A stretch of 54,853 nt of DNA. It comes from a virus. Of this stretch, positions 3,214-54,207 are shown in pieces. Location of the stretch: the IMG/VR virus record IMGVR_UViG_3300044684_000175, positions 1-54,853 of that record. One strand, written 5' to 3'. The notes below the pieces were generated by a model. The model did not search any database. It had not been told where the DNA came from and saw nothing but the letters and a program-made list of their open reading frames with translations. The position numbers and the translations under genes are program-made. Position 1 is the stretch's first letter; each line of letters opens with the position of its first letter.

Positions 3214-4305
3214 TCATCCCCGCACCTCACGGAGTTTAGCGAGGAGGGAGCGGGCGCGGCGCATATGTCCGAACGTGAGATGGTTTGCAGCGTCGGTGCG
3301 CGCGATGCGTCCGTCATCGGGCCATTCGCCGCAAAGGCGGATATCGGCAGCCTTGGCGAACGGCTCCAGCACCTCCGCCGCCTCCGCAAGGAGGGCGGAT
3401 TGGTCGGGCGGTGAGGTGAAGAGGGGAATGGCCTCAACAGACCTATGCAGATATCCATCGAGCGGGAACATTTTCCCCGAATCATCGCGCCGTATCAGGT
3501 CTAATTGACCGTGCGTCGTAACTGCCACCGGCTGCGCTTGCTCGGTTACGGGAGGGACGATACCTTCCCCGACAACCTTTCCGCCAGCCATTGACAGGGC
3601 GTTGTTCAGCGCCTTCACGACATTTTCGCCGGTGAAACGAACCGTCTGCCAGTTTGTCCATTCGGCGCAAACCTCAACAGCACTATTCGGACCGCCGAAA
3701 CCCGCGTTATCCGCCAAGATGGTCAGCGCTGAGCCTTCCGACTGGCGAAGATGTTCAATCAGGCTCCAAGCTTCTTCAGCTACTTGGGGCGACTTCGGAA
3801 ACACCCCCTCACTATGCGGTGAGACGATGGGGGAGGGCTTGGTCGGCAAGGTGAAGGAGGGGAATTGGGCGGCGCTGGTGACGCGTTCAAACCGGCCGTC
3901 TTCGAACTCCGTCACGCCGCGAACCCACAGGGCACCATCCTCGCCGCGATAGATCACAACTGGCTTATCGTCCAAAAGCTCATTCGCTGCGCACTGGAGT
4001 TTACCGCGCCCAATCTCGGTGTAGACGGTGCCGCGCTTGACGTGACGCCAGGCCAATGGGGCTTGCCGACAATCTGAGCCCCGATCCTGTTGTCTATCTG
4101 GGTTGGTGATAGCGCGACGGTTCCAAGCTTCTGACGCATCATAGCTATCGCCCGTCACCCTGATCCAAGGGCCAGCAGCTTCACAATCTGCGCATTTGAT
4201 ATTTGATCCGCTTTTGTGTGCCTCCCAGTACTTTACGTTGGCTGACCCACAAAACGGACAGCGCTTCAGTTCCGGCATTCCTTGGGCTTGGTGTTCAGAG
4301 GTCAT
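3214..4305 (-). CDS. Lar-type zinc-ribbon protein with long extension
   Basis: 363 residues. The N terminus (about 13-67) has the Lar / restriction-alleviation zinc-ribbon pattern: LKRCPFCGS, then CADCEAAGP, then a closing EAWNRR. E. coli Lar modulates type I restriction; related phage ribbons are mostly uncharacterised. The rest is a mosaic: a domain around 85-140 with strand-rich sequence, helical segments near 170-230, and a C-terminal helix bundle (310-360). Stop and start interlock with the next gene at 4305. A role in countering restriction is inferred only from the first domain. Confidence 0.75.
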   Translation of the reverse strand: MTSEHQAQGMPELKRCPFCGSANVKYWEAHKSGSNIKCADCEAAGPWIRVTGDSYDASEAWNRRAITNPDRQQDRGSDCRQAPLAWRHVKRGTVYTEIGRGKLQCAANELLDDKPVVIYRGEDGALWVRGVTEFEDGRFERVTSAAQFPSFTLPTKPSPIVSPHSEGVFPKSPQVAEEAWSLIEHLRQSEGSALTILADNAGFGGPNSAVEVCAEWTNWQTVRFTGENVVKALNNALSMAGGKVVGEGIVPPVTEQAQPVAVTTHGQLDLIRRDDSGKMFPLDGYLHRSVEAIPLFTSPPDQSALLAEAAEVLEPFAKAADIRLCGEWPDDGRIARTDAANHLTFGHMRRARSLLAKLREVRG

Positions 4306-4847
4306 TAGTTTCCTCCCAGAGGCTTAGCTTCGGTCTGTGGGGCGGCCGGGACACCGCCCCCGAGTGCCATGTGCAGAACGTCGTCTGCGTGATCGCAATG
4401 GGCCTGATTGCTGCCGACCGGATGGGCGGCGGCGTAACCTTTGGCCATCGGAAGGACCAACTGGAGAGCGTCAAACAGTTCTGAGGCGGCAAGAGCCTTC
4501 GGGGCGAGCGTGGTCAAGGCCACGTCCAGGGCGGCAATATCATCGTTGCGCACGCGGACACGCAGGCGATGCCACTCCGGGTCTTTGCACTTAGGACGCT
4601 GCAATGCCTTCAGGGATTGCGCAATATCGCCTTGAAAAGACCAGCGCAGGGCCTTGAGCGTGTCGATATGAGTGGAAAGGGGCCGTGTCTCGGCGGCCGC
4701 TTCGACCTCAGCCCTGGCAACGGTACGAACCCCATCCACCTGCTCTATAAAAGCCTCAAGCATTTGCTTAGCACTTTCATAGTTAGGCCATTCAGGGTTA
4801 GCCATGGCCTTAAGAGCGGCGCGGGCTTCTGTTATGGTGAGGGTCAT
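4305..4847 (-). CDS. Helical early protein, 180 aa
   Basis: 180 residues from ATG 4845-4847, which overlaps the methyltransferase stop by 4 bp. A longer in-frame reading to 5054 would sit inside the methyltransferase and looks like shadow sequence. Strongly helical and Ala-rich, with no Cys-based motif. Family not recognised. Confidence 0.75.
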   Translation of the reverse strand: MTLTITEARAALKAMANPEWPNYESAKQMLEAFIEQVDGVRTVARAEVEAAAETRPLSTHIDTLKALRWSFQGDIAQSLKALQRPKCKDPEWHRLRVRVRNDDIAALDVALTTLAPKALAASELFDALQLVLPMAKGYAAAHPVGSNQAHCDHADDVLHMALGGGVPAAPQTEAKPLGGN

Positions 4848-6703
4848 GCGGGCACTCCCGACATATCGAGGGTAAGAGCCAGGGCGTGCGGCCTGACCCA
4901 GATATTGGTGGACGACAGGAAGAACGTCTCTCCCTTTTCCGCGAGCAAGAGCGTCTGACCCACGACCTGGCCCATGGCGGTAGCGGCCTTTTTCGGGACG
5001 GCATTGCCGATGTGCTCCCGAATTTCCCCATCGGACGAGCCGTATATGATCCATGTATCCGGATCCTCGGGTTCAACCAGGCTTTGGAGCGCGCCCATTT
5101 CGAGCGTGGTCACCGGCCGGTGCCAGGTTCCGTCCAGGGCGCGGATGATGCAGGATAGGCGTTGGTCCGCGGCGGGAAGCTCTGGCGCCGGCCCGGTGAA
5201 GAACGCTTCCGCGCCCTCACGCCTGTCCGCGACCGACCACGATCCGTTGTCCAGTTTTCCGAACGCGGGCACGGCGCCTGATGGCTGATCACCGGACATG
5301 ACGCCATAGTGACCCTGCGTGTTGTAGTGGCTGCGCTCGCCGCGCATACCCTCAGGGCGCGGGTCCGCTACCGATATCCAGCCGCCCTGGACGCCTTTGC
5401 CGCCGCCCGTGACAACGCCGGTTGCATCCTCCCATTTGCCGACAGCCATGTTATTGTAACGGTTCTGCCAGCGAGGCAGCGGGTCTGCGACGCAAGCCGC
5501 GCCGGAGCCGACACGGTCGGTTCCGGTCACGACGCCGGGAACGCCGTCATAGGGTATGATCCGGAACTTGTTGGTATGGGCGCCCACGCCATGGGTGGGT
5601 CGCGGGTCCGCGACGGAGAATGTGCCCTGTCCTGGCGACCGATGGCCTGTGACGACGCCGGGCGTGTCGTTCATGCTCATGACGCCATACTGCTGGTACT
5701 GGTCGGCGCCATGCGGCGGTCTCATGTCCGCGACCGAGAACGGCCCATTGTTGGGCAGGCTGCGACCGCGCACAGTCCCGGCCGTATCTTCCCAGCGGTT
5801 TACGCCCAAGAACCCGTTCTGTCGCTCAGGCATGATCAGGTAGTCGGTAAGATATCCATCCTCGACGTTGAGGTGGTTGAGCGAGCGCCAGTCCTTTCCG
5901 GCTTCGACAAAGGCGAGCCGGACCCAGGTCTTCCACGACAACTGGGGAACACGGTGCATGGCGCCACCGATAGGATCGCCGGGAAGCGGCATCCGGTCGA
6001 GGATTTCGCCAATGCCGAGAAGGCGCTGCATTGGCGGCTCGTACAGGAACGGAGGCACCAGCTCCATATGGCGCGCCATCAGCAGGAACCGAGGCCGGCT
6101 CTGTGCCAGGCCGCCCAGCTTGCCACAATCATACTTGGACGGGTTCACGGCATAGCCATAAGACCGGAACAGGGCGACGATCTGATCGACCAGCCACGCA
6201 CCCCTGGTTTCGATGCGGGGTACGTTCTCGAAGGCGATAATCTTGATCGGCCTGTCCTTGAAGGCTTCCAGGAGGAGCCAGACGCAGCGTAGCGTCAGTT
6301 CGTTCAGGGCTTGATATTTCGGCGTCAGCGACATCGCCTGTGAGAGTAGGCCGGAGAAGCCCTTGCAGGGAGCGGAGATAAAGCCAAAGTCGGGCCATTC
6401 GCCATGGGCGGCGCGGCGGACATCATCCGGCGTCACTTCGCGCCAGCCGGCCGGCGGTTCCCGGCCGTGGAACTTGATGTACTGTAGGCGAGTGAACAGG
6501 TCTGCCAAGGTACCCTGCACGCCGGCTCGGTGCGTGAAGTTTTGGATCGCGCTCGGGCTCACGTCCATGCCGCCGACGCAACGCCAGACTGCCTCCAGGA
6601 GCCCCATCTGGGTCACCGCCTCGTTGACGCCCTCGGCGCTTCCGCCCATGCCGCAGCACATGTGGAAGTGGGTGTATTCATGTCTTTCGACCATCTGGGC
6701 CAT
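4844..6703 (-). CDS. C5 cytosine DNA methyltransferase with tandem repeat domain
   Basis: 619 residues, long for a C5 methyltransferase. Conserved motifs in order: AdoMet loop CCGMGGSAEG (16-25); catalytic APCKGFS with Cys113; ENV (159-161); QSRPR (201-205); and IGNAVP (565-570) near the C terminus. Between motifs VIII and X, where the target recognition domain normally lies, there are about five tandem repeats of about 41 residues. Each ends in SVADPRP or similar (VAD at 324, 364, 405, 445, 491) and contains a GVVTG-type core. It should methylate cytosines in phage DNA, probably to evade restriction. Target site cannot be predicted. Ordered with the GapR and clamp genes in one transcript. 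Confidence 0.92.
   Translation of the reverse strand: MAQMVERHEYTHFHMCCGMGGSAEGVNEAVTQMGLLEAVWRCVGGMDVSPSAIQNFTHRAGVQGTLADLFTRLQYIKFHGREPPAGWREVTPDDVRRAAHGEWPDFGFISAPCKGFSGLLSQAMSLTPKYQALNELTLRCVWLLLEAFKDRPIKIIAFENVPRIETRGAWLVDQIVALFRSYGYAVNPSKYDCGKLGGLAQSRPRFLLMARHMELVPPFLYEPPMQRLLGIGEILDRMPLPGDPIGGAMHRVPQLSWKTWVRLAFVEAGKDWRSLNHLNVEDGYLTDYLIMPERQNGFLGVNRWEDTAGTVRGRSLPNNGPFSVADMRPPHGADQYQQYGVMSMNDTPGVVTGHRSPGQGTFSVADPRPTHGVGAHTNKFRIIPYDGVPGVVTGTDRVGSGAACVADPLPRWQNRYNNMAVGKWEDATGVVTGGGKGVQGGWISVADPRPEGMRGERSHYNTQGHYGVMSGDQPSGAVPAFGKLDNGSWSVADRREGAEAFFTGPAPELPAADQRLSCIIRALDGTWHRPVTTLEMGALQSLVEPEDPDTWIIYGSSDGEIREHIGNAVPKKAATAMGQVVGQTLLLAEKGETFFLSSTNIWVRPHALALTLDMSGVPA
5213..5827 (-). repeat. Five tandem ~41-residue repeats inside the methyltransferase
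   Basis: Codons for about residues 293-497. Repeat pattern: WEDTxGxVTG, a short Gly-rich linker, SVADPRP, then a variable segment leading to YGVM or similar. Phasing of the VAD triplet is 40, 41, 40 and 46 residues. Repeats are diverged at DNA level, so they are old or selected for variation. They replace the usual target recognition domain. Confidence 0.85.
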
Positions 6704-15130: not shown

Positions 15131-15567
15131 CAGCCAATAACTTTTGATTTTGCCGCCGCATATTCTGTGTCGGTTAGAAGCCCCTGGGCACGGAGCACCG
15201 CAAGTCGCTCCAGTTCTTCCGCCAGATTGACTCCGGGGTCGATCTCGGGTCGCCCCACGCTCATTCGGGCGGTGATCGCATCGCGCAGGCGGATGAAATC
15301 CTGAAGGCACTTCGATCCGAACATGACCGCATTCTCATCTCCGTCAGCGAAAGGTCTTGTGTCATCACGCCCGTTGATAGAAAGGCGCAAATGACCCGCC
15401 AGTAAGCCAGGCTCTTTTAATTGTAGAGCCGTGATTGACTTTATGTCGATCGCCTTGTCGCCTTGGCCCATCAGGAGAAAGCTTGTCGACATGCCACCTT
15501 CTTTGCGGCTGATGATGACAGAGGTTTCCGTCAGTTCCATACTGCCGTTCTTGCCAATGACTTTCAC
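15130..15567 (-). CDS. SHOCT-domain protein
   Basis: 145 residues from a GTG at 15565-15567 with AAGGAGG upstream. The first two thirds are strand-rich and PH-like (MELTETSVIISRKEGG, then a later LQLKEP). The last 30 residues are a SHOCT motif (EELERLAVLRAQGLLTDTEY). SHOCT tails commonly mark proteins that oligomerise. Lies 24 bp after the repressor gene and is probably co-transcribed with it. Confidence 0.7.
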   Translation of the reverse strand: MKVIGKNGSMELTETSVIISRKEGGMSTSFLLMGQGDKAIDIKSITALQLKEPGLLAGHLRLSINGRDDTRPFADGDENAVMFGSKCLQDFIRLRDAITARMSVGRPEIDPGVNLAEELERLAVLRAQGLLTDTEYAAAKSKVIG

Positions 15568-15591: not shown

Positions 15592-16317
15592 CTACATTTT
15601 CCTTAGACAAGACACTACGCGTCCAATGATCTTGATCTCATCGGCCAGGACTTCGTATGGCGGATAAACGCTATTTTCCGATACGAGCAAAAGTTTGTAT
15701 GGGTCGGCGCCGTGGATGCGGCTGACGTTTTTAACTACGAGCCCGAAGCCGTCCCATAGCGCGAATACACCGGGAGGAGTGGGGTTGGTATCATTCTGGT
15801 CGACGATGATCCTGTCGCCCGGCATCAACTTTGGTTCCATGCTGTCGCCGATAACCTCGACCATGTTCAGTGCGTTCGGACTGGCGCGTAACTCGCGGGT
15901 CACATACTCGCGGCTAAATCCCCACCTGGCTTTAATGTCGTCGCCTTCCACGAGGGTGCCGCCGCCGGCTGACAGCTTGATGTCGTATTCCGGGATGCTG
16001 ATCGTTCCGTCCTGGGCTTCGCTCGTCGGCAGGTCAAAATCGGTCGGCCGAAGATCGTTATGCGGCGGCTCATCCGGCCCAAGCGAAGGCATCGCCACCT
16101 TTGCCGCCTCTGCCAGCTTCGCGAGGGTGCGGGTCGACGGGACGGACGGGTTTTCACCCTCTTTCGGATAGACGTGGCGCGTTATGGTCGTGACCGCGAC
16201 GTCCGCCTTTTTTGCCCATGATGTTGGGTTGAGCTCGGGCTTGGCGGCCAAGACGCCGCTCATCCACTCGCGGATGGCTAACAGTTCAGATGCTCTCGTA
16301 TCGTTCATGAGTAGCAT
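15592..16317 (-). CDS. S24/LexA-type phage repressor
   Basis: 241 residues. An N-terminal helix-turn-helix (about 12-70, with ADVAVTTITRHVYP) is followed by a linker and an S24 peptidase domain. Catalytic Ser159 sits in GDSMEP and Lys196 in VVKNV. A possible self-cleavage Ala117-Gly118 lies in LSAGGG. RecA-stimulated autocleavage at Ala-Gly, as in lambda CI and LexA, would inactivate it after DNA damage. It is divergent from the Cro-like gene with operators between, and likely represses both the 16.35 kb and 13.2 kb promoters. ATGs at 16317 and 16308 are both possible starts. Confidence 0.92.
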   Translation of the reverse strand: MLLMNDTRASELLAIREWMSGVLAAKPELNPTSWAKKADVAVTTITRHVYPKEGENPSVPSTRTLAKLAEAAKVAMPSLGPDEPPHNDLRPTDFDLPTSEAQDGTISIPEYDIKLSAGGGTLVEGDDIKARWGFSREYVTRELRASPNALNMVEVIGDSMEPKLMPGDRIIVDQNDTNPTPPGVFALWDGFGLVVKNVSRIHGADPYKLLLVSENSVYPPYEVLADEIKIIGRVVSCLRKM

Positions 16318-18215: not shown

Positions 18216-18472
18216 ACACTGTCGATCTCGTCTTCGCCGGCTATGTCGGCGGCGTCGCCTCAGTCCTCGCCCTATACCCGGTCGCCGCCTGGGCGAAGAC
18301 ACGCTTTCGCCACTGGCTGGCGCGCACCCCGGTCGAGCCCGTGCCTGAGCCGGAACCGGCCCAATGGCCGAAGCTGGATCTGCCCACGCGCGGCAAGGGC
18401 GGTCGTTTCATTTCCAAGCGGGAGGCCATGCGCTCTCTGCTGGAACGTGATGTGGCGGCGGCGGGAAAATGA
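18212..18472 (+). CDS. Single-span membrane protein, 86 aa
   Basis: A hydrophobic segment at about residues 5-28 (LVFAGYVGGVASVLALYPVAA) is followed by a basic stretch, a Pro/Glu linker (PVEPVPEPEPAQ) and a basic tail. Likely N-terminal anchor with cytoplasmic tail. Overlaps both neighbours by 4 bp. Not recognised. Confidence 0.7.
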   Translation: MNTVDLVFAGYVGGVASVLALYPVAAWAKTRFRHWLARTPVEPVPEPEPAQWPKLDLPTRGKGGRFISKREAMRSLLERDVAAAGK

Positions 18473-21021
18473 GCGTCCAGACCTATCGCCAGTTTCTTGA
18501 GGCCAAGATCAGGATGGCGCCCGCCATCGGCTTTGACGTGCCATTGGACCGTATAAACCCGGCCCTGAAGCCGCATACGCGCGCGCTCGTCCAGTGGGGT
18601 GTCCGCGGTGGCCGCCGCGCCTTCTTTGCCTCCTTCGGCCTGCACAAGACTGCGACGCAGCTGGAGACCTGCAGGATCCTGAAGGCTGAGGTCCTGGCCG
18701 AAACCGGCCGGCCGGCATTGGCGCTGATCATCTGCCCGCTCGGGGTCAGACGCGAGTTCGTCAAGGAAGCGGCGGAACGGTTCCAGGGCGAGTTCGGCAT
18801 CCGGATCAAGTTCATCCGCGGCGCCGACGAGATCGAGGTCGACGTCGCCGGCGAACCGCCGGTCATCCATCTTACCAATTACGAGACCGTGCGCGACGGC
18901 CGGCTTGACCCGAACCTATTCGATATCGCCAGCCTGGACGAGGCCTCGGTCCTGCGCAGCTTCGGCTCCAAGACCTATCAGACGTTTCTTACCCTGTTCG
19001 AGCGCGTCCGTTTCAGATTTGTGGCCACGGCGACGCCAAGCCCGAACCGGTACAAAGAGCTTATCCACTATGCCGGCTTCTTGGCCATTATGGACACGGG
19101 ACAGGCCCTGACCCGCTTCTTTCAGCGCGACAGCACCAAGGCCAACAATCTAACCTTGTACCCGCATAAACGGCAGGAGTTCTATTTCTGGCTCAACAGC
19201 TGGGCGGTATTTCTGCAGAAGCCATCCGACCTCGGTTTCAGCGACGACGGATACGTGCTGCCCGAGCTCGATATCCGCTGGCATGAGGTTCCCACCGACC
19301 ACAGCATGGCCGGAACCGAAGGCAGGGAGGGGCAGGTCCTGCTCTTCAAAGACGCGGCGCTCGGCATCGTCGAGGCTGCGGCAGAGAAGCGGGACAACCT
19401 GGGCCAGCGGATTGCGCGCATGATGGCCATCCGTGCCGACGATCCGGGCGCACACCGGCTAATTTGGCACGACCTGGAGGCTGAGCGTGAGGCCATCGAG
19501 GCAGCAATCCCTGACGTCGTCAGCGTCTACGGCAGCCAGGACCTGGACGAGCGTGAGCTTGCGGTCGAGGCCTTCAGCGAAGGCCGCGTCCAGGAGCTGG
19601 CGGCGAAGCCGATCATGCTCGGCTCGGGCACGAATCTGCAGCGCCACTGCGCCTGGGCCATCTTTCTCGGCATCGGGCCGAAATTCAACGACTTCATCCA
19701 GGCGATCCACCGCCTCCACCGCTTCGGCCAGCCGCGGCGCGTCCGCGTCGACCTGATCTATTCCGAGGCCGAGCGGGAGCAGCGGCGGACGCTGGAAGCG
19801 AAGTGGCAACAACACAAGGAGCTTCAGGACGCCATGGGCGAAATCATCCGCGAATTTGGGCTCAATCACTTAGAAATGAGCCAGGTTCTGACCCGAAGCA
19901 TTGGCATTGACCGCGTCGAGGCCGCCGGTGCCGGCTGGCTGGTCGCAAACAACGACTGCGTCGAGGAGGTCAAGACGATGGAGGACAATTCCGTTGATCT
20001 GATCGTGACCTCCATACCGTTCTCCAACCACTACGAGTATACGCCCTCCTACAACGATTTCGGACACACCGACGATGATGGCCACTTCTTCGCCCAGATG
20101 GATCACCTCAGCCCGGAACTTCTCCGGATCCTGAAACCAGGCCGGCTGGCCTGCGTCCACGTCAAGGACCGTATCCTTTTCGGGTCCGTGACTGGCATGG
20201 GCCGCCCCACGGTCAACCCTTTCCACGCCAAGTGCATCGAACACTACCAGGCGCACGGCTTCGGCTACATGGGCATGATCACGGTCGTGACGGACGTGGT
20301 CAGGGAGAACAATCAGACCTACCGCCTCGGCTACACGGAGATGTGCAAGGACGGGTCCAAGATGGGTGTGGGCTCGCCCGAATACGTCCTACTCCTGTGC
20401 AAGCTACCCACAGACCGGTCCAAATCCTACGCCGACGAGCGCGTCCAGCATGAAAAGGCCGATTACAGTCTCGCCCGCTGGCAGGTGGACGCGTCCGCGT
20501 TCTGGCGGTCGTCGGGCGAGCGAATGCTCACGCCGGAAGAGTTGGCGGCGCTTCCGCCTGACGTCTTAGGCAAAGCATTCACCCGGCAGACGTTGGACGC
20601 TGTCTACGACTACGAGACCCACGTGCGCATCGGTGAAGCCCTGGAGGCGCGCGGCGCCCTCCCGTCGACGTTCATGGCCCTGAGCCCCGGCAGCAACGAC
20701 CCCGACGTCTGGCATGACATCAACCGGATGCTGACCCTCAATGGCGACCAGACCCGCAAGGGGCTCGAAAACCATGTCTGCCCGCTCCAGTTCGACATCG
20801 TGGACCGGCTCATCGAGCGCTACAGCCAAAAGGGAGAGCTCGTCTTCGATCCGTTCGGGGGTCTATTCACCGTCCCTTACCGTGCGCTGAAGGCCGGGCG
20901 CCGCGGTCGCGCCGTCGAGCTTAACCCGTCCTATTTCTTGGACGGGATTAAATACCTGCAGTCTATGGAAGCGGATGTGTCCATGCCATCCCTATTCGAT
21001 TTCCTGGAGGCGGCAGAATGA
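18469..21021 (+). CDS. SF2 helicase - DNA methyltransferase fusion
   Basis: 850 residues. The N-terminal half is Snf2-like SF2: motif I SFGLHKT (55-61), DEAS box (157-160), motif III TATPSPN (187-193) and motif VI HRLHRFGQ (414-421). The usual GLGKT has become GLHKT, but Lys and Thr remain. The C-terminal half is a beta-class amino-methyltransferase: motif IV SIPFSNHYEY (515-524), then motif I FDPFGG (793-798) with VELNP. Beta-class enzymes carry motif IV before motif I and make N6-methyladenine or N4-methylcytosine. The helicase may move the methyltransferase along DNA or strip bound proteins. Anti-restriction is a likely role, inferred. Linked by overlaps to 18212 and 21018. Confidence 0.88.
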   Translation: MSVQTYRQFLEAKIRMAPAIGFDVPLDRINPALKPHTRALVQWGVRGGRRAFFASFGLHKTATQLETCRILKAEVLAETGRPALALIICPLGVRREFVKEAAERFQGEFGIRIKFIRGADEIEVDVAGEPPVIHLTNYETVRDGRLDPNLFDIASLDEASVLRSFGSKTYQTFLTLFERVRFRFVATATPSPNRYKELIHYAGFLAIMDTGQALTRFFQRDSTKANNLTLYPHKRQEFYFWLNSWAVFLQKPSDLGFSDDGYVLPELDIRWHEVPTDHSMAGTEGREGQVLLFKDAALGIVEAAAEKRDNLGQRIARMMAIRADDPGAHRLIWHDLEAEREAIEAAIPDVVSVYGSQDLDERELAVEAFSEGRVQELAAKPIMLGSGTNLQRHCAWAIFLGIGPKFNDFIQAIHRLHRFGQPRRVRVDLIYSEAEREQRRTLEAKWQQHKELQDAMGEIIREFGLNHLEMSQVLTRSIGIDRVEAAGAGWLVANNDCVEEVKTMEDNSVDLIVTSIPFSNHYEYTPSYNDFGHTDDDGHFFAQMDHLSPELLRILKPGRLACVHVKDRILFGSVTGMGRPTVNPFHAKCIEHYQAHGFGYMGMITVVTDVVRENNQTYRLGYTEMCKDGSKMGVGSPEYVLLLCKLPTDRSKSYADERVQHEKADYSLARWQVDASAFWRSSGERMLTPEELAALPPDVLGKAFTRQTLDAVYDYETHVRIGEALEARGALPSTFMALSPGSNDPDVWHDINRMLTLNGDQTRKGLENHVCPLQFDIVDRLIERYSQKGELVFDPFGGLFTVPYRALKAGRRGRAVELNPSYFLDGIKYLQSMEADVSMPSLFDFLEAAE

Positions 21022-21335
21022 CCCCCCGCCAGACAGCCTGTCTCAATTACATAGACGCCTATATCCGGCGCACCGGCGGCGTATCACCGTCCTACGCCGA
21101 GATTAGCGCGCACATGAACCTCGCCAGCCGCAGCGGCGCGCACAGGCTTGTCACGGCCCTGGAGAGCCTTGGCCGCCTCCGTCGCCATCCCGACCGCGCA
21201 CGCCAGCTTGAGGTGGTCAAAGTCGAGACGGCGCCAGCCAAGAGTGTGGACGCTGATATGGCGGCAATGCTTCAGGCTTATGGATCGCGGCGCGTGGCAG
21301 AAGCGTTTAATCGGCAGACGGGGATGGCGGGATGA
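21018..21335 (+). CDS. Orphan LexA-type DNA-binding domain protein
   Basis: 105 residues. MTPRQTACLNYIDAYIRRTG, then SPSYAEISAHMNLASRSG and VTALESLGRLRRHPDRARQL is the LexA winged helix. The S24 peptidase part is missing and a helical tail of about 35 residues takes its place. It should bind DNA without SOS-linked cleavage. Targets could be LexA boxes of the host or sites of its own. Follows the helicase-methyltransferase with a 4-bp overlap. Confidence 0.8.
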   Translation: MTPRQTACLNYIDAYIRRTGGVSPSYAEISAHMNLASRSGAHRLVTALESLGRLRRHPDRARQLEVVKVETAPAKSVDADMAAMLQAYGSRRVAEAFNRQTGMAG

Positions 21336-21778
21336 CCCATCTTATTGCAACTCCCATCGACCTTGCCAGCGCTAACGACTTCGTCACGCGACTGCATCGC
21401 CATCACAAGCCAGTGCGCGGCCACAAGTTCAGCATAGCCGCGTCCGATGATCTGGGCATTCGTGGTGTCGTCATTGTCGGTCGCCCGGTCTCGCGCATCC
21501 TCGATGACGGCCTGACGCTGGAGGTGACGCGCCTGTGCACTGATGGCCGCGCCAACGCTTGCAGCTTCCTTTATGGCGCTGCGGCCCGCGCCGCGTTCGC
21601 GCTCGGTTACCGCAGGATCGGCACCTACATCCGCGCCGACGAGCTTGGAACATCCCTGGTCGGCGCCGGCTGGCGCATGGTTGCCCAGGTCAAGGGCCGC
21701 AGTTGGGACTGCGCCAGTCGCCCACGCATCGACCAGACAGAGATTATCGACCGCCTGCGTTTCGAGAGGGTCGCATGA
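21332..21778 (+). CDS. XF1762-type GNAT-fold phage protein
   Basis: 148 residues. Signature stretches: HRHHKPVRGHKFSIAA, then VVIVGRPVSR, TLEVTRLCTDG and NACSFLYGAAARAAF, ending in GTSLVGAGWRM. This is the XF1762 family, often annotated as acetyltransferase-like because of the GNAT-like core. The double His start also recalls Mu Mom, a GNAT-fold DNA-modification enzyme. Its position right after a DNA methyltransferase makes a DNA-modification role worth considering, but no substrate can be deduced. Confidence 0.75.
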   Translation: MTHLIATPIDLASANDFVTRLHRHHKPVRGHKFSIAASDDLGIRGVVIVGRPVSRILDDGLTLEVTRLCTDGRANACSFLYGAAARAAFALGYRRIGTYIRADELGTSLVGAGWRMVAQVKGRSWDCASRPRIDQTEIIDRLRFERVA

Positions 21779-46309: not shown

Positions 46310-48304
46310 ATGACCGATATCCAGATCGACGCCCTTTCCCCGGCCGGGACGCTGACGGGAAACGAGAACACGGCCATCAGCCAAGCCGGCGTCACTGTTC
46401 GGACCAATATCACAGGTCTCACGTCATTCGCGGTCGCACAGGCCACCGCAGCCGCGCAGGGCTATGCCAATCAAGCAGCGGCGTCGGCAACGGCTGCGGC
46501 AGCAAGCGCTAGTGCGTTCAACAATCTTTTTGATCAGACATCTCTTCGCTACGCGTTCGGCAAGAAAATGCTGGCGACTGTGGCAGACGCAAACCTTGAA
46601 ATGGGTCTTGGTCTGGCCGAGGACGGCTTTTTTTATGCCAAACATGCTATCCAGGTTGGAGCGGTTGCAAACGGCCTGACCTTCACACGCAGCACCCTTA
46701 CAGGCTTCTATTCAATCCAGCTGGGATCGGTGCAGGGCCAACTGCCGCTTGGTTCGGCGGGCGATATGATCGATACGACCGAGCTTCGCTACTACGCCGG
46801 AAAGGCGGTGGCGTGGGATGTCAGAGACGTCAATGGTCGGGCGTCGATCATCAACACCATAGACGGCGACGTCTATATCCCGAACCTTGTGCTTGGCGCC
46901 AATCAGACCAATAACCTGGACAAGGCCCTGGATACGACCTCGTGGCTATTCAGTTCAGCAAAGGTCGGTTCGGCCTGGCAAATCTTCCGGACGTCGAAGT
47001 CCTCGTGGGGTCAGCCTGTCCAGACCACGTTCACGGGTAACAACCTGAACCCGGTGATAAGCGCCGATGGCGCCAACATCATCTATTCATCGGACAGGCT
47101 GGGTGGTCGAGATCTATTTTACCAGCCTACCGGCGGCCTTGTGAATGGGAAAGATCATCCGGTTTTCCCCACGACCGGCGCCTTCTATTGTCTTGGTGAT
47201 AGCCTCACCCAGGGCGGCGAAGGAAACAGTGGCGCCGGAGCCTATCCAGTGTATCTCGCATCACTGCTGGGGCGAACGGCAACGAACGCGGGTATTGGTG
47301 GCCAAAAGTCCACGCAGATAGCGATGCGGTACGGGGCGGTATCTTGTTGGCTCACGTTCGGCGGATCTTCGGTCACTACAGGCGCCAATAGTGTCGCCGA
47401 TATCGGATCGACATCATCCAACGGAATACCGGTTGGAGCGTGGCCCGGGAACGTTGATCCAGACTACCGGCTTCTTTCGACCGCGGCCAGCTCTGGAAAC
47501 TTCAGCTGCACTGGAACGCTGATAAGCGGTGCAACATCGGTTCACGGCATCCTGGCACGCAGTGTCACCGGAGGAACGACCGAGGTCTATAGCTTCACCC
47601 CGGATGCCAGCGCGTCAGGCCTACCCCTGTCGGTCAGTGGGGCGGTGCAGTTTCTCGTCGACACATTCGGATATGATGACGAACTGGCGGTCTTCTGGCT
47701 AGGGCGCAACAACTACACCCAGACCGCACAAGTCACATCCGACGTAAATGCCTGCGCCGCATGGTTTAAGCCGCTGGCCAAGCGCTTCGTGGTCATGGGT
47801 GTTCTCATCGGCCGGTATTCTTCCGAGGCGTCAGGGCAAGCGAACTATACCACCATCACCGGGTACAACAGTTCGCTCTACGCGGCCTATCCCAACAATT
47901 CCGTCGATCCTAATGCAGCCTTGCTGGCGGCGGCGAATATGTCGGACCCGCTGGACGCTTACCTGCATGGCCTTGGCCAACCGCCGGCATCACTCGCGGC
48001 CGTGACAACGGGGAGCTCGTTCAGCGCCAACGTCGCCGCCGGCGATACGACCTTTTCCTGGTCCGGAACCGCCTCGGTTTACGGGGGCGCAATTCTTCGC
48101 ATCGGCACGGGCGAGGCCATTTACATCAACTCCGTCTCGGGCAGCACGGTTACGTCCTGCGTCCGTGGCTTCGGTGGAACCACGGCGGCAGCATACACAT
48201 CGGGTCAGGCGTTCAATGTCCTCGATCCCATCCACCTAAACGGCTCAGGTTATAACGTCATAGCCACGGCATTATACAACTTTATTTCCGGAAAGAACTG
48301 GTAA
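46310..48304 (+). CDS. Tail fibre with SGNH hydrolase domain
   Basis: 664 residues. An Ala-rich helical stalk (about 40-75) is followed by a beta region with one propeller-like blade (PVISADGANIIYSSDRLGGR). From 293 on comes an SGNH/GDSL hydrolase: CLGDSLTQG with Ser298, NAGIGGQKSTQI, GRNNYTQ in block III, and DPIHLNG with Asp639/His642. A beta module of about 75 residues sits between blocks III and V. SGNH enzymes in tail proteins usually remove O-acetyl groups from surface polysaccharide, so the receptor is probably an acetylated glycan. Stop and start overlap with the next gene (TAATG). Confidence 0.85.
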   Translation: MTDIQIDALSPAGTLTGNENTAISQAGVTVRTNITGLTSFAVAQATAAAQGYANQAAASATAAAASASAFNNLFDQTSLRYAFGKKMLATVADANLEMGLGLAEDGFFYAKHAIQVGAVANGLTFTRSTLTGFYSIQLGSVQGQLPLGSAGDMIDTTELRYYAGKAVAWDVRDVNGRASIINTIDGDVYIPNLVLGANQTNNLDKALDTTSWLFSSAKVGSAWQIFRTSKSSWGQPVQTTFTGNNLNPVISADGANIIYSSDRLGGRDLFYQPTGGLVNGKDHPVFPTTGAFYCLGDSLTQGGEGNSGAGAYPVYLASLLGRTATNAGIGGQKSTQIAMRYGAVSCWLTFGGSSVTTGANSVADIGSTSSNGIPVGAWPGNVDPDYRLLSTAASSGNFSCTGTLISGATSVHGILARSVTGGTTEVYSFTPDASASGLPLSVSGAVQFLVDTFGYDDELAVFWLGRNNYTQTAQVTSDVNACAAWFKPLAKRFVVMGVLIGRYSSEASGQANYTTITGYNSSLYAAYPNNSVDPNAALLAAANMSDPLDAYLHGLGQPPASLAAVTTGSSFSANVAAGDTTFSWSGTASVYGGAILRIGTGEAIYINSVSGSTVTSCVRGFGGTTAAAYTSGQAFNVLDPIHLNGSGYNVIATALYNFISGKNW

Positions 48305-49095
48305 TGACAATAACTGTCACACAAAAGCTTTCATCAGCTTTCACGGATACGTCGCTTCCGAAGCTTTATCGTGATCCTATTCTTACAGCAGGGTCATTGT
48401 TTTTGTTCGACGCTCTCAATAGCTATTCGAACCCAAACGCAGACGGCAATATCGCGAACGGGGCAACCTTCGCCAATCTCATTGATGGTGCGCCAGGTGC
48501 TACGGCAAACCTGCTCGGATCACATTTCCAGAACCTCACCGGAAAGGCGGGCATCTATTCCGATGGTGCCGGCGGCGGCAGCGCGATCGGCATGGGGGCC
48601 AGCACATATGACCTCTCTGCATCTAACCATGAGTTCTGGGCCTGGCTATGGTTCAAGCTCCCGTCAACTGGATATACCACCAGCAATTACCAGTCTCCGT
48701 TCTTTTATTCGACCAGCAATGCGAACACGTCGCAGTGGTGGTTTGATCTTGGCGTTGGTGGTGTTCAACCCAGGTTCTCCATAGGTGAGGGCGGTACGTC
48801 CGCCATGACGCTGACCAGTCCGACCAATATCACGCCCGGCTCCATCTACATGCTTGCCGGACATTGGAAAGCGGGCGCGCTGATGGAAATGTACCTGAAC
48901 GGGTCGCTGAACAATTCGAACTCATCAGGAATTCCCTCGTCACTGCAGGCCGGAAGCACGGCGCAGCCATCCATCACCGACAATGTCACCGGGACAATTT
49001 ACCGATGGGGGCTTGAGGACCTTACCGTATCGGGGGCCTCCGCCGCTGCGCAAGCATCCGCCGAATACAACGCCAATCATACCCGCTTCATTTGA
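48304..49095 (+). CDS. Lectin-like tail adhesin
   Basis: 263 residues. DGAGGGSAIGMGASTYDLSA, FWAWLWFKLPSTGYTTSNYQ, then AGHWKAGALMEMYLNGSL and a closing YRWGLEDLTVSG look like a concanavalin A / LamG jelly roll. Such domains bind sugars. Directly after the SGNH fibre gene, so it probably belongs to the receptor-binding apparatus. Confidence 0.7.
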   Translation: MTITVTQKLSSAFTDTSLPKLYRDPILTAGSLFLFDALNSYSNPNADGNIANGATFANLIDGAPGATANLLGSHFQNLTGKAGIYSDGAGGGSAIGMGASTYDLSASNHEFWAWLWFKLPSTGYTTSNYQSPFFYSTSNANTSQWWFDLGVGGVQPRFSIGEGGTSAMTLTSPTNITPGSIYMLAGHWKAGALMEMYLNGSLNNSNSSGIPSSLQAGSTAQPSITDNVTGTIYRWGLEDLTVSGASAAAQASAEYNANHTRFI

Positions 49096-49104
49096 GATCA
49101 AATC

Positions 49105-49572
49105 ATGCTTCGCAAAATCCTACCCCTTGCCGCGATGTTCGTTCTCGTCGCAGGCAGTGCATCTGCTCAAGTGGCACCGCAGTATTCCGGGGCCAACGGG
49201 TCAATAATCAATGGCCAGGTGATGTTGTGCCCGGCCGCTGACGGCATCCACGCCACGGCATGTCCTGCCGGCACATCGGCGAACCCGACGATCACGCAGC
49301 CCCAACCGACAACCGCCGCGGTAGCGTCGGCCCAACAGACCTGCACCACCTCCGCGGTTCAGCTGCCGAACCAAGCATATACAAACGGCTTTGTCGCGAC
49401 CGCGCTGACCACGAACACGGGCACGGTATATATCGGCGGCAGTGGAGTGACGACGTCTACCGGCTATCCGCTCAAGCCAGGTCAGTCCATCGCCTACAAC
49501 GCTGCCAATTCCAATCAGGCCTACCTGATCTGTGATGGCAACTCGGACAAGATCACGATCACCGGGAACTGA
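49105..49572 (+). CDS. Secreted protein in the tail fibre locus
   Basis: 155 residues. MLRKILPLAAMFVLVAGSAS is a clear signal peptide with cleavage likely after Ala21 (SASA, then QVAPQY). The mature part is Thr/Ala/Asn-rich beta sequence with four Cys (VMLCPAADGIHATACPAG; QTCTTS; LICDG). Unusual for a virion protein, since assembly occurs in the cytoplasm. It could be a periplasmic partner of the next gene. Confidence 0.7.
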   Translation: MLRKILPLAAMFVLVAGSASAQVAPQYSGANGSIINGQVMLCPAADGIHATACPAGTSANPTITQPQPTTAAVASAQQTCTTSAVQLPNQAYTNGFVATALTTNTGTVYIGGSGVTTSTGYPLKPGQSIAYNAANSNQAYLICDGNSDKITITGN

Positions 49573-49574
49573 CG

Positions 49575-51452
49575 ATGAAATCCATTTCCAAACTGTTGGC
49601 GTCTCTCGCCTGTTTGTTTGCTTTCGCCCCGGCGTTTGCGGCAGTGCCTCCTATCCCACCGACGCCAATCGTCGCGGCGGCATCGACGCAAATTCAGGCG
49701 CCACTGGGTATCAACATGTGGGGCGACAGCCTCACGGCTGGTGGCCAAGATGGCTCGGGCATTACCGTTGCCACGGCCTTGTCCGGTCTGACCGGCCAAC
49801 CGGTCTACAACTACGGCGTCGGCGGTCAGGTCTCGACCCAGATCATGATGCGCGGCGGTTTCATGCCGACGACCGTGACGGTGACCAGCAATTCCATGCT
49901 CACTTCGTTTTTGACACAGACGACTGTGACCGCCTTGGGCGGTGTCGCGCTTGCGGGGACGGCGACGACGCAGAGCCCGGACTATCGTCTTTATTCCACA
50001 CCGGCCGGAAATGTCGGCGGCACGCTCTATCAAGGATATGGCACGCTTTGCGGTGTGTACGGTATCCTGACCCGTTATCAGGGCGGACTTAGCGGTGGGC
50101 CGCCTTCGACGACCGAGGCCTATCGCTGGTATAGCCTCTATGCGCCTTCGAACTTCAGCAACCCGATTACCTGCGCGGCCAATTCGACCTTTACGCCGGA
50201 TACCGCGAAGTTGATGGGTATGCCGGCGATCGTCTGGCCGGGCCGCAACAACTATACTCAAGTCGCCCAGGTCGAAAGCGATATCGCCGCTTTCGTGGCG
50301 GCTGAAAATGCCATCGGAAACCCCAACTATCTGATTTTGGGGGTGATCAACGGCGAATACTCTGGCGAGGTCTCGGGCCAAGCCGGTTATACGCAGATCA
50401 CATCGATCAATAGCAATTCCGGGTCTTTGTATCCGGGGCATTTCTGGGATGTGCGTGCTTGGCTGATCACGCAAGCCACTGCCGGCAACATAATGGATCA
50501 ACAGGATGTTGCCAACGACATTGTGCCGTATAGCCTGCGCGCGACCGTCGGCACCGGCACGCTGTCCGGCGCGCTCGGCACGACCGGATGTCCGACCCTA
50601 TCGGCCACGGCCTCTACCGGGACCTATCACGTCGACAGCGAATACATCATCGCTACAGCCGTCTCCGGCACGTCCGTCACGACCTGTTCCCGCGGCCAAG
50701 GCGTCGGTGGGGTCGCCGCCGCCCACAGCAATGGCGCTGCCTATACGCTCACCGACAATATCCATCTCAGCGGCACGACCGACGCAGCGATTGCGAGCTA
50801 TATCAACAGCCATTTCCTGACGCTGTTGACGCCAGCGAAGCAGACGGTCGTGACGCCGGCCGCGATGGGCAACTATCTCACCGGGGCAAACGTCGGCATA
50901 AGGGCTGGCTCTACCTACGTCCACGGGCTTCTCAACGTCGATGGCAACACCGTGTACGCGCCGAACTTTGGCATCCTGTCGACGGACGGAAACGGCAACC
51001 CGATCCAGATCCTGCGCGCAGTCGGTGCGCAGGTGTACATGGGCGGCTCCTTCATTCAACAACTAAGCTTCGGCACGGGCGGTGTCGGCGGCATTTCAGC
51101 CCAAACCAGTGCCAATAATGGTCTTTGGATAACGACGCACGGCACGGCGGACGCGGGATATTCCTACTCTCAGCCCGCCACGGGCAGCACGGTCACGATC
51201 GCTGATACCGGCGACCTCGCGATTATCGATCCCGCCGGCAGTCTATCGACGCTGACGGTGAACTTGCCGACGTGTTCGAGCTCCTACGATGGGAAAATGG
51301 TGGGTGCCAGCTTCACGCAGCCGGTCACAACCCTATCCATGGGCGCGACGGCTGGCACGGTGTTGGGGGCGCCAGCTACCGTCGCGGCAAATTCGGCCTA
51401 TCGTTGGATATGCAGGGGCACAAACACGACGTGGTATCGGCTCACGAACTGA
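49575..51452 (+). CDS. Secreted SGNH hydrolase with fibre-like tail
   Basis: 625 residues. Signal peptide 1-22 (LLASLACLFAFAPAFA). The SGNH domain holds MWGDSLTAGG with Ser52, YNYGVGGQVSTQI, WPGRNNYTQ and TDNIHLSG with Asp394/His397. A beta module (about 323-391) is inserted before the last block. The C-terminal 200 residues are a beta-rich, fibre-like tail (GATAGTVLGAPATVAANSA). Close in layout to the fibre at 46310 but exported. Two bases after the previous gene, so they should be co-expressed. Confidence 0.78.
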   Translation: MKSISKLLASLACLFAFAPAFAAVPPIPPTPIVAAASTQIQAPLGINMWGDSLTAGGQDGSGITVATALSGLTGQPVYNYGVGGQVSTQIMMRGGFMPTTVTVTSNSMLTSFLTQTTVTALGGVALAGTATTQSPDYRLYSTPAGNVGGTLYQGYGTLCGVYGILTRYQGGLSGGPPSTTEAYRWYSLYAPSNFSNPITCAANSTFTPDTAKLMGMPAIVWPGRNNYTQVAQVESDIAAFVAAENAIGNPNYLILGVINGEYSGEVSGQAGYTQITSINSNSGSLYPGHFWDVRAWLITQATAGNIMDQQDVANDIVPYSLRATVGTGTLSGALGTTGCPTLSATASTGTYHVDSEYIIATAVSGTSVTTCSRGQGVGGVAAAHSNGAAYTLTDNIHLSGTTDAAIASYINSHFLTLLTPAKQTVVTPAAMGNYLTGANVGIRAGSTYVHGLLNVDGNTVYAPNFGILSTDGNGNPIQILRAVGAQVYMGGSFIQQLSFGTGGVGGISAQTSANNGLWITTHGTADAGYSYSQPATGSTVTIADTGDLAIIDPAGSLSTLTVNLPTCSSSYDGKMVGASFTQPVTTLSMGATAGTVLGAPATVAANSAYRWICRGTNTTWYRLTN

Positions 51453-51462
51453 TCCTGCGCCG

Positions 51463-52581
51463 CTACCACCCCGCCTTGGTTATGAAGTCCGCTACGGTCG
51501 CGGCAACAATACCATTGCCGGCATCGTTGAGATGCAACTGGTCACCGCGCAGGCCGGTTGGGACCAGATCATTGGCGTAATCGGAAGCGTTCGCGTACTG
51601 CGAGCCCGGTGCCCCCTTGGCCACCAATATGGAACGGATGTCGATGTAGTTGTTCGGATAGGCCGCTTTTAACGAAGCGTTCAATCCTGTGATCGTTGTC
51701 CAATTGGCCAGGCCGTTCGTCTCACCATTGTTAAAATCGCCGTTCAGGATCGACAAAACCACGAATTTGCCATCGGGAAGGGCGGCGACCATTTTTGCAA
51801 TGTCGGCAATGACTTCGGAGGGGTAGAAATAGTTGTTCCGCCCCGCCCAAATGACAGCAATTGAGCCCGGCGCTTCGACGGAGATCGTGAAGGCACTTCC
51901 GGCCGGGCAGTTGACCGTGCCAGGATCCGTTGCCGGCGTGAAGGTATACTGAAGGGCAGTTGACGGGGGACCTCCCGACGCGCTGCCTGTCAATGTGCCG
52001 GCGATGCCCTGGATCGTCCCATTGACGGAAATGGGACCGTTTCCCGCCCCTGTGGAGACAAGCCGATAATCAGGGTCTTGCATGGTCGCGTGCCCGACGA
52101 GAACAACCCCGTTGACGGCCGTGACAGCATTGGCGCCTGCGACGATTTGGTTGCCGGAAATAGTCAGCTTTGTTGCAATGCCACCTTGGCGCATACCGAT
52201 CTGCGTCGAGGTTTGGCCGCCTATGCCTTGATTTACTACCGTCGCTCCAGGCAGCAAAGCCGTCAACTGATCGGGGTATGGAGTACCGTATACGCCCTGG
52301 GTCAGGCTATCGCCCCAGCAGATTATCCGGCGCTTTGCCGCAGATGCCGAGCTCGATGAACTGGACGAGCTTGAAGAACTTGAGGAGGTCGAAGCGGACG
52401 CGCTTGATGAACTGGAGCTTGACGTGCTTGCGGTTGAAGAACTGGAGCTCGATGAAGCACCAGAGACTGGCGTGATCGAGGCGCTACTTCCCCCGCCTCC
52501 GCCGCCGCAGGCGGTCAGGATGGTTGTTGAACACGCCCCAAGAAGGAGCGCACGCCGATTGGGCGCAAATATCGTTGTCAT
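51463..52581 (-). CDS. SGNH hydrolase lipoprotein with poly-serine linker
   Basis: 372 residues from ATG 52579-52581. N terminus: a twin-Arg (NRRALLLGAC) and a lipobox LTAC with lipidated Cys25, followed by GGGGGG. Residues about 31-82 are almost only Ser, Ala and Thr. Then CWGDSLTQG (Ser about 92), VVNQGIGGQTSTQIGM, WAGRNNY and GDQLHLND (Asp347/His350). It lacks the inserted beta module of the other two. It should be a surface or periplasm-facing esterase on a flexible tether. Convergent with the late operon (10-bp gap) and with its own candidate promoter. Probably expressed in the lysogen; receptor deacetylation and superinfection exclusion is the hypothesis. Confidence 0.8.
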   Translation of the reverse strand: MTTIFAPNRRALLLGACSTTILTACGGGGGGSSASITPVSGASSSSSSSTASTSSSSSSSASASTSSSSSSSSSSSSSASAAKRRIICWGDSLTQGVYGTPYPDQLTALLPGATVVNQGIGGQTSTQIGMRQGGIATKLTISGNQIVAGANAVTAVNGVVLVGHATMQDPDYRLVSTGAGNGPISVNGTIQGIAGTLTGSASGGPPSTALQYTFTPATDPGTVNCPAGSAFTISVEAPGSIAVIWAGRNNYFYPSEVIADIAKMVAALPDGKFVVLSILNGDFNNGETNGLANWTTITGLNASLKAAYPNNYIDIRSILVAKGAPGSQYANASDYANDLVPTGLRGDQLHLNDAGNGIVAATVADFITKAGW

Positions 52582-52604
52582 GTGAAACCCCACTCGCTCC
52601 GGTT

Positions 52605-52633
52605 GTCGTACCGCTTACGGACGTTTCCGTCAA
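52605..52633 (-). promoter_or_regulatory. Candidate promoter of the lipoprotein gene
   Basis: On the minus strand TTGACG (52628-52633) and TACGAC (52605-52610) with a 17-bp spacer, about 24 bases before the ATG. Good -35, fair -10. Separate from the late rightward promoters. Confidence 0.5.
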
Positions 52634-52637
52634 TTCC

Positions 52638-52660
52638 AGTCGCCTCAGGGTGGCTTTTTT
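52638..52660 (+). terminator. Rightward terminator opposite the lipoprotein promoter
   Basis: AGTCGCC (52638-52644) with GGTGGCT (52649-52655) including two G-T pairs, loop TCAG, then T6 (52655-52660). It would stop late transcripts that have run antisense through the lipoprotein gene before the lysis cassette. Confidence 0.5.
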
Positions 52661-52684
52661 CATGCCCTAAGGAGGGGCAAAACC

Positions 52685-53041
52685 ATGACCACTACCGTCA
52701 ATATGAACGGCCTGACCGGCCAACTGTCCACCATCCTGCGAGAGGCTCTGGCCGCGCTGGAGAAGTTCACCGGTCCCGAAATCGACGCGCTAAAGGCTTC
52801 GGCCAAGGATACTATGGACAAGGCCGTGGCCGCTTCCGGTCCGATCGGTATCCAGATTTTCAACGCCGGTCTCGAAAGCTTTCCGGGCGTGAAGATCATC
52901 GCCCCGGCCATCGAGGTCGTTGCCGATCCCATCGTCGGCAACCTGGTCCATGCCGGTGCCCAGGCAGCTGACGACGCTATTACCGCAGACCTGAACAAGG
53001 CGCAGGCGGCGCAAGCCGCCCCCCAGCCCCAGCCGGAGTAA
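52685..53041 (+). CDS. Helical protein at start of lysis cassette, 118 aa
   Basis: 118 residues with AAGGAGGGG upstream. Helical: LSTILREALAALEKFTGPEI, then a moderately hydrophobic GPIGIQIFNAGLESFPGVKI stretch and a Pro/Gln-rich end. No clear membrane span. Might be a virion or lysis-related protein. Not recognised. Confidence 0.6.
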   Translation: MTTTVNMNGLTGQLSTILREALAALEKFTGPEIDALKASAKDTMDKAVAASGPIGIQIFNAGLESFPGVKIIAPAIEVVADPIVGNLVHAGAQAADDAITADLNKAQAAQAAPQPQPE

Positions 53042-53450: not shown

Positions 53451-53783
53451 ATGAGGGAATATCTTTCCGCGCATACGCCGGCCGACGAACGGCCCTATCC
53501 GCAGTTCGTCAACTTCTCCGTAGAGGGCGACGAAGTCGTGATCTCCGTCCGCGCCAAGCAGACCGAGGTCGACGGCGTCCGCATCTGTGGCCAAACCTGC
53601 CAGCCTGGTGGCTTTGGCTGCAATAACTATTGCAACATGGCGCCCGACAAAGGTCCCATGGCGGACAAGCCTGAAGACTTCACCCATCACAACGTCGGCG
53701 CCCAGGCGGAAATGCGCCTGCCGCGCGAGACCGCTATCCAGATCATGGGTGAAGCGCTCGCCAAATTGATGGGTGAGAAGTGA
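53451..53783 (+). CDS. Cys-containing hypothetical protein, 110 aa
   Basis: 110 residues. Strand-rich first half (FVNFSVEGDEVVISVRAK) and four Cys in ICGQTCQPGGFGCNNYCNM, which could bind a metal ion. Helical end. AGGAGG lies upstream. Not recognised. Confidence 0.65.
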   Translation: MREYLSAHTPADERPYPQFVNFSVEGDEVVISVRAKQTEVDGVRICGQTCQPGGFGCNNYCNMAPDKGPMADKPEDFTHHNVGAQAEMRLPRETAIQIMGEALAKLMGEK

Positions 53784-53784
53784 T

Positions 53785-54207
53785 ATGCCTCTCCGCGACA
53801 TTCTGATCCAAGAAGAGGGCTGGGAAACCAAGACCTATCCCGATCAGGACGGCAACCACACTTGGGGTGTGGGCCATCTTGATCCGCACTCACCCATCGG
53901 CGAAGTCCACACCGATGCCCAGATCAGCATCCAACTCGATACCGATATTTCCGCCGCGACCGGTGCCCTCGAACGCTTGATCCCATGGGTGGTCAATCTC
54001 GATCAGGTCCGCCGCGAGGCTGTGATCGACATGGCCTTCCAGATGGGAGCCGGCAAGGTCATGCAGTTCCACCAGATGCTCGCCAAACTGCAGGCTGGTG
54101 ACTATGCCAGCGCCGCGGCGGAAGCCCTCGACAGCGATTGGGCGCGCGAGACGCCGAACCGGGCGCAGGGCGTCGCCAATCGCATCCGGACGGGCGTCGA
54201 GCCATGA
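53785..54207 (+). CDS. Endolysin, GH24 lysozyme
   Basis: 140 residues from ATG 53785. The T4-type triad pattern is visible: catalytic Glu in EEGWETKTYPDQDGNHTWG, with the Asp and Thr a few residues on, and GVGHL. Second lobe has LIPWVVNLDQVRREAVIDMA and FQMGAGKVMQFHQMLAKLQ. It hydrolyses peptidoglycan. There is no signal peptide, so release depends on a holin. ATGA overlap with the next gene. Confidence 0.88.
   Translation: MPLRDILIQEEGWETKTYPDQDGNHTWGVGHLDPHSPIGEVHTDAQISIQLDTDISAATGALERLIPWVVNLDQVRREAVIDMAFQMGAGKVMQFHQMLAKLQAGDYASAAAEALDSDWARETPNRAQGVANRIRTGVEP

Follow-up and report, generated by a model that had tools for sequence, protein, structure and literature searches.

An SGNH esterase subfamily at three predicted addresses in one phage: tail fibre, exported enzyme and lipoprotein

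Llp of phage T5 is a superinfection-exclusion lipoprotein, and the receptor-destroying esterases of animal viruses keep progeny from being trapped. Ltp of phage TP-J34 is also a superinfection-exclusion lipoprotein (PMC3952083), and in phage D3 acetylation by the prophage-encoded Oac blocks adsorption and excludes superinfection (PMC11436027). Deacetylation of surface glycan is known from virion proteins: the tail spike gp63.1 of G7C is a deacetylase (PMC10743462), and Klebsiella prophages encode SGNH receptor-binding proteins with esterase activity, which are proposed to deacetylate the surface glycan at adsorption; a part for deacetylation in superinfection was suggested for these prophages in 2026, raised but not shown (PMC13123978). 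The NanS-p proteins of Stx prophages are secreted esterases with a nutritional role (PMC8065619). Here we describe the IMG/VR virus record IMGVR_UViG_3300044684_000175, analysed over its whole length of 54,853 bases (the window), which encodes three related SGNH esterases: a tail fibre, an exported enzyme and a predicted lipoprotein. SGNH fibres, acetylation-based exclusion and exclusion lipoproteins have each been described before; within the open-access literature we found no described system that pairs the three addresses, as the initial annotation had supposed (subscription papers lay outside the search).

How does this locus compare with its closest counterparts? The Klebsiella proteins, gp63.1, PHROG 11419 and the tail spike PDB 9sij are, like the window fibre, fibre-borne esterases, and stand at the same SGNH subfamily level by sequence; the window lipoprotein itself matches phrog_11419 at E 3.7e-42 and 9sij at E 2.6e-13. 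However, these are virion proteins, whereas the window adds copies with export or lipoprotein signals. Oac-type serotype conversion by Pseudomonas phage D3 and Shigella phage Sf6 resembles what we propose here, in that a prophage alters surface-glycan acetylation and blocks adsorption (PMC11436027). Oac adds acetyl groups by means of an integral membrane acyltransferase, whereas the window would remove them with an anchored hydrolase. Ltp and Llp are, like the window lipoprotein, envelope lipoproteins encoded by a prophage or phage, but no enzymatic activity has been described for them and no sequence relationship to the window protein is known, and for the latter a role in exclusion is a proposal. 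NanS-p is likewise a prophage-borne O-acetylesterase outside the virion, but it belongs to a different esterase family, serves nutrition and is not a lipoprotein (PMC8065619); the Pfam esterase matches in the window are of the Lipase_GDSL type only, and the SASA-type domain, the hallmark of NanS-p, is not among them. The chromosomal lipoprotein esterases of Caballeronia (L039-L041 and L053; L-numbers are our handles for the related records) share a lipobox, a Gly/Ser-rich tether and an SGNH domain with the window lipoprotein and are 39-42% identical to it, but they form a separate clade, and the context in L053 is non-phage.

Kinship and predicted sorting signals of the three esterases

The three genes had been proposed to share more than a fold, and this is borne out. 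Pairwise BLASTP of their domains gave 36-41% identity over 247-372 aa (E ~1e-37 to 1e-46), and the lipoprotein, used as a query against the whole record, retrieved exactly two matches, the fibre and the exported gene (E 1.4e-44 and 7.3e-39). This kinship is far beyond chance. All three reading frames are uninterrupted and full length (Table 1), and each retains the block I Ser, block II Gly, block III Asn and block V Asp-x-x-His; the catalytic residues are Ser298, Asn467 and Asp639/His642 in the fibre, Ser52, Asn225 and Asp394/His397 in the exported esterase, and Ser92, Asn249 and Asp347/His350 in the lipoprotein. Across 23 homologues the catalytic Ser, Gly and Asn are invariant, and Asp/His are conserved in at least 90%.

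The trio also has in common block I (GDSLTQG, GDSLTAG and GDSLTQG), block II (GIGGQKSTQI, GVGGQVSTQI and GIGGQTSTQI), a PDYR motif (PDYRLLST, PDYRLYST and PDYRLVST) and GRNNY. We counted these motifs over 67 representative related SGNH domains, the relatives having been gathered from viral contigs, genomes, and phage and plasmid records; a scan of viral contigs with the single lipoprotein sequence gave no match, and relatives were recovered only via alignments. GRNNY, thought at first to be the uncommon shared feature, is indeed found in just 9 of the 67 domains, but GRN alone is frequent (53/67). PDYR[LF] occurs in seven: the window trio, two proteins of the sister phage L004, the exported esterase of L090 and the virion fibre of L063. 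On these counts it is PDYR[LF], and not GRN, that is diagnostic and marks a phage subfamily. The full set of four motifs is confined, among the 67, to the trio and the two L004 copies.

Do the three group together? In a tree of 31 domains, our preferred version, from which two long-branch rows were left out, the trio falls with L063, L064, L065, L004 and L090 in one clade with support of 94/95; when the two rows were kept, the corresponding ten-row group had 80/93. The expected grouping thus holds at the level of one phage-fibre subclade, but it is not exclusive, since other phage fibres are interspersed among the trio, and the branching order inside the clade is not settled by the tree. A tree in which the trio and its orthologues stand by themselves scores below the best one, yet it is not rejected (approximately unbiased (AU) test, p 0.18). 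A solid clade (99/98) unites the exported proteins from the window, L004 and L090.

Signal peptides and the lipobox were judged by eye from the sequence, and this inspection agrees with the earlier assignment of a fibre without a signal, a protein with a signal peptide and a lipoprotein on the opposite strand. The fibre has the features of a virion protein: a position in the tail operon, no export signal and a coupled partner gene of 263 aa. Homologues of this partner lie directly 3' of 55 of the 98 SGNH genes surveyed, mostly with gaps of -9 to +35 nt, and in this survey none followed an exported form, a Caballeronia lipoprotein or the window lipoprotein. The fibre is therefore a typical virion module, which the other two esterases have left, and the 263-aa protein probably belongs to this module as a fibre partner or cap. 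The fibre also has a beta-rich insert between blocks III and V. By eye, a beta-rich insert before the catalytic Asp/His (fibre ~566-637, exported ~325-392) resembles the Rcc01698_C region of the window's 838-aa tail protein, with the pattern GE.I...VSG..VT.C.RG..GT; it is absent from the lipoprotein and from L063. In L131 (6869-13422), L132 and L135, two modules of SGNH fibre and partner gene stand in opposite orientation, with a partner homologue behind each fibre copy; in L131 the modules are flanked by 84-nt perfect inverted repeats and look like an invertible esterase-fibre cassette. A cassette of this kind was rejected for the window, where we found no suitable inverted repeats and no serine recombinase.

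The exported esterase begins with a signal peptide, MKSISKLLASLACLFAFAPAFAA, and is encoded in the late operon, immediately before the lysis genes. It has orthologues in L004 (78% identity over the full length) and in L090 (41%, with a signal peptide of its own). Its beta-rich C-terminal part may be fibre-like. The full-length model was poor (predicted local distance difference test (pLDDT) 33.5, from only three sequences) and was left out of the fold search. A second exported fibre-like late protein, of 787 aa with a signal peptide, is encoded in the tail region of L152 (32411-34771; OM868079.1), a phage with a related TerL.

Origin of the lipoprotein gene

The minus-strand protein starts with MTTIFAPNRRALLLGACSTTILTAC followed by GGGG, a twin-arginine-like lipoprotein signal. 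It contains RR (RRALLLGA) ahead of the lipobox LTAC with Cys25, and the n-region Arg, the h-region and the lipobox Cys are all present (NRRALLLGACSTTILTAC followed by G). Residues 26-82, about 57 in all, form a Ser-rich linker or tether. The SGNH fold anticipated for the domain is confidently predicted: the AlphaFold2 model had a mean pLDDT of 92.1 and a predicted template modelling score of 0.90, and it matched GDSL/SGNH esterase structures at Z 17-21. Neither 9sij nor gp63.1 was among the best 50 fold matches listed; this is no argument against kinship, because 9sij is still the best match by sequence. The features of a virion fibre are missing from this protein, which instead has a lipobox and a tether, is encoded on the opposite strand and has no partner gene.

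Where does its SGNH domain come from? The closest sequence is the virion fibre of L063 (51%). Caballeronia has lipoprotein SGNH genes that stand alone, and a derivation from such a host lipoprotein esterase family was tried and rejected, as the union of the window lipoprotein with the sampled Caballeronia forms failed the AU test (p 0.014). The lipoprotein is therefore best seen as an SGNH domain of phage-fibre origin, judged from the sampled sequences, with a lipoprotein front end. A recent duplication inside the phage is disfavoured by the 36-41% identity and by the unsettled branching.

In the fibre region and at the right end, the sister phage L004 (IMGVR 3300044693_000254) is ~96% identical to the window, and in the SGNH region of the fibre 98%. 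L004 retains the fibre with its 263-aa partner gene as well as the exported esterase, but the lipoprotein gene is absent: the exported gene ends at 15132 and is followed by a 124-aa gene from 15201. The lipoprotein gene is therefore accessory. By its sequence traits it is moron-like: it is present or absent between close relatives (one relative compared), is oppositely oriented and is atypical in composition, with a codon match to the phage backbone of 0.52 versus 0.64-0.74. Gain in the window and loss in L004 are both possible from two genomes of a lineage that is probably temperate. At the same place the window (52685-53041, 118 aa) and L004 (15201-15575, 124 aa) carry different small genes with a common C-terminal end, PQPQPE. 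Within the region upstream of the lipoprotein gene, a candidate promoter, TTGACG-17-TACGAC, was seen by eye lying over ACGGAAACGTCCGT, an exact and unique palindrome at 52617-52630, and a terminator-like hairpin is found on the plus strand at 52638-52655.

The phage and its neighbouring genes

The window encodes a terminase, a portal, a tape-measure protein and a tail module of the Rcc01698/BR0599/phiJL001 type, and the phage is probably a temperate siphophage. Its temperate nature is suggested by the CI-like repressor and by a tyrosine integrase at the left end of L004, just beyond where the window begins. The only hint at a host, possibly alphaproteobacterial, comes from the Rcc01698-, BR0599- and phiJL001-type tail families. 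The closest TerL proteins, at 74%, are those of Synechococcus phages, which have almost nothing else in common with the window over the 49.9 kb compared and so do not allow a host to be assigned. In a search of 385 genomes (class of Pelagibacterium), relatives were found in just 2. The small exported protein ahead of the exported esterase has a diverged counterpart of 165 aa in L004 (34% over 137 aa). The window further contains a Mom-like DNA modification gene (21332-21778), and methyltransferase-type genes together with a match to Lar-like restriction alleviation (4844-6703, 18469-21021 and 3214-4305).

Table 1. Positions of the features of the window
Feature	Position	Strand	Details
CI-like repressor	15592..16317	-	phrog_4, E 6.4e-29
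Tail fibre	46310..48304	+	664 aa; C-terminal SGNH esterase domain ~290-664; no signal peptide; phrog_11419 tail fiber, E 2.6e-25
Partner gene	48304..49095	+	263 aa; phrog_19357-type; one-base overlap with fibre stop codon
Small exported protein	49105..49572	+	155 aa; Sec-type signal MLRKILPLAAMFVLVAGSASAQ
Exported SGNH esterase	49575..51452	+	625 aa; Sec signal 1-22; SGNH ~45-415
Predicted lipoprotein SGNH esterase	51463..52581	-	372 aa; SGNH 83-372
Tandem repeats	52348..52456	-	degenerate 15/18-nt repeats encoding the Ser-rich linker
Intergenic region upstream of lipoprotein gene	52582..52684	-	103 bp
Endolysin, phage lysozyme family	53773..54207	+	PF00959, E 1e-15

Possible roles of the three esterases

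What might a phage do with one esterase subfamily at three addresses? We tentatively favour, at somewhat less than an even chance, the reading that a phage-specific subfamily of SGNH carbohydrate O-acetylesterases has been spread over virion, export and lipoprotein, and that the coat of the lysogen becomes deacetylated, so that the receptor is masked or superinfection is excluded. The fibre on the virion would most likely bind and deacetylate the host surface glycan at adsorption, in the manner of gp63.1 of G7C (PMC10743462). The Sec-exported form from the late operon would act in the periplasm or outside, where it would most likely strip the same decoration around lysis. The accessory lipoprotein, with its fibre-type SGNH domain, lipoprotein signal and Ser-rich tether, would deacetylate the envelope of the prophage-bearing cell, and the mark recognised by phages with SGNH fibres would be gone. 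We infer here an acetylated substrate, display of the lipoprotein on the surface, its expression in the lysogen and the exclusion itself. Lysogenic conversion seems the most economical reading for the lipoprotein, and the late exported form would be a better fit for a role in release. In a sharper version, which we regard as rather doubtful, a fibre esterase turned lipoprotein would make the coat of the lysogen look already digested, giving a self-derived exclusion, and the exported form would clear the mark at release.

Relatives offer some links to acetylation. In L090 (7854-11752) the gene after that of the exported SGNH esterase encodes a 285-aa protein, exported or anchored, that contains a GDSE motif, and next in the row comes an Acyl_transf_3 O-acetyltransferase; the three are possibly a set that adds and removes acetyl groups. 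In L017 (7895-10930) the minus strand carries an Acyl_transf_3 gene immediately upstream of an SGNH fibre gene and divergent to it. Such genes occur in 4 of 49 SGNH phage records, and their presence is only suggestive of an acetylation theme.

Several observations weigh against deacetylation of the lysogen coat as we propose it. At no more than 36-41% identity, the members of the trio may differ in the glycans that they act on, and the specificity of the lipoprotein is not necessarily that of the fibre. Only one phage is known to carry the lipoprotein gene, and a consensus promoter scan of the 103 bp upstream of this gene found no promoter. The window record holds no Acyl_transf_3 or other acyltransferase gene, and no integrase was seen in it, the position of the L004 integrase being just past its left end.

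Could the esterases serve release rather than exclusion? The exported enzyme, perhaps together with the lipoprotein, might deacetylate the coat of the producing cell and its debris and so keep progeny that bear deacetylase fibres from being trapped, as the receptor-destroying esterases do for animal viruses. The position of the exported gene before the lysis genes, its retention with a signal in L004 and L090 and the seemingly fibre-like C-terminal part of its product would all suit this. We nevertheless consider this account unlikely, and it leaves the separate minus-strand lipoprotein unexplained. Alternatively, the lipoprotein could be a moron that frees acetylated sugars or alters the coat to the benefit of the lysogen, with no anti-phage role. 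Precedents are the nutritional esterases secreted from prophages, such as NanS-p (PMC8065619), and the stand-alone lipoprotein SGNH genes that Caballeronia carries outside prophages. However, the SGNH domain of the window lipoprotein lies in the phage-fibre clade and not in that of the chromosomal lipoproteins, and we think this explanation distinctly unlikely. It is still less probable that the exported enzyme, the lipoprotein or both deacetylate peptidoglycan and open the way for the lysozyme-type endolysin: although the endolysin gene lies 2-3 kb downstream and the peptidoglycan O-acetylesterase Ape1 is among the fold matches listed, that match is poor (template modelling score ~0.4, root-mean-square deviation ~12), and the kin by sequence are surface-polysaccharide fibres and tail spikes of phages. 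Finally, the opposite-strand fibre pairs of L131, L132 and L135 might suggest that the minus-strand gene is a non-functional, recombined alternative fibre end with a chance lipoprotein-like start, but this is very improbable, as inverted repeats in the window are limited to conserved SGNH coding matches and a few short ones, a serine recombinase was not found, and the gene lacks a fibre partner gene and is intact in signal, lipobox, tether and all catalytic residues.

If deacetylation of the lysogen coat is indeed what the lipoprotein brings about, attachment, release and exclusion would all be served by one enzyme subfamily, and a single genome would tie fibre specificity to lysogenic conversion. 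The PDYR motif offers a means of locating further such sets. The locus would also offer a direct and testable case in which deacetylation, and not acetylation alone, is a mechanism of superinfection exclusion.

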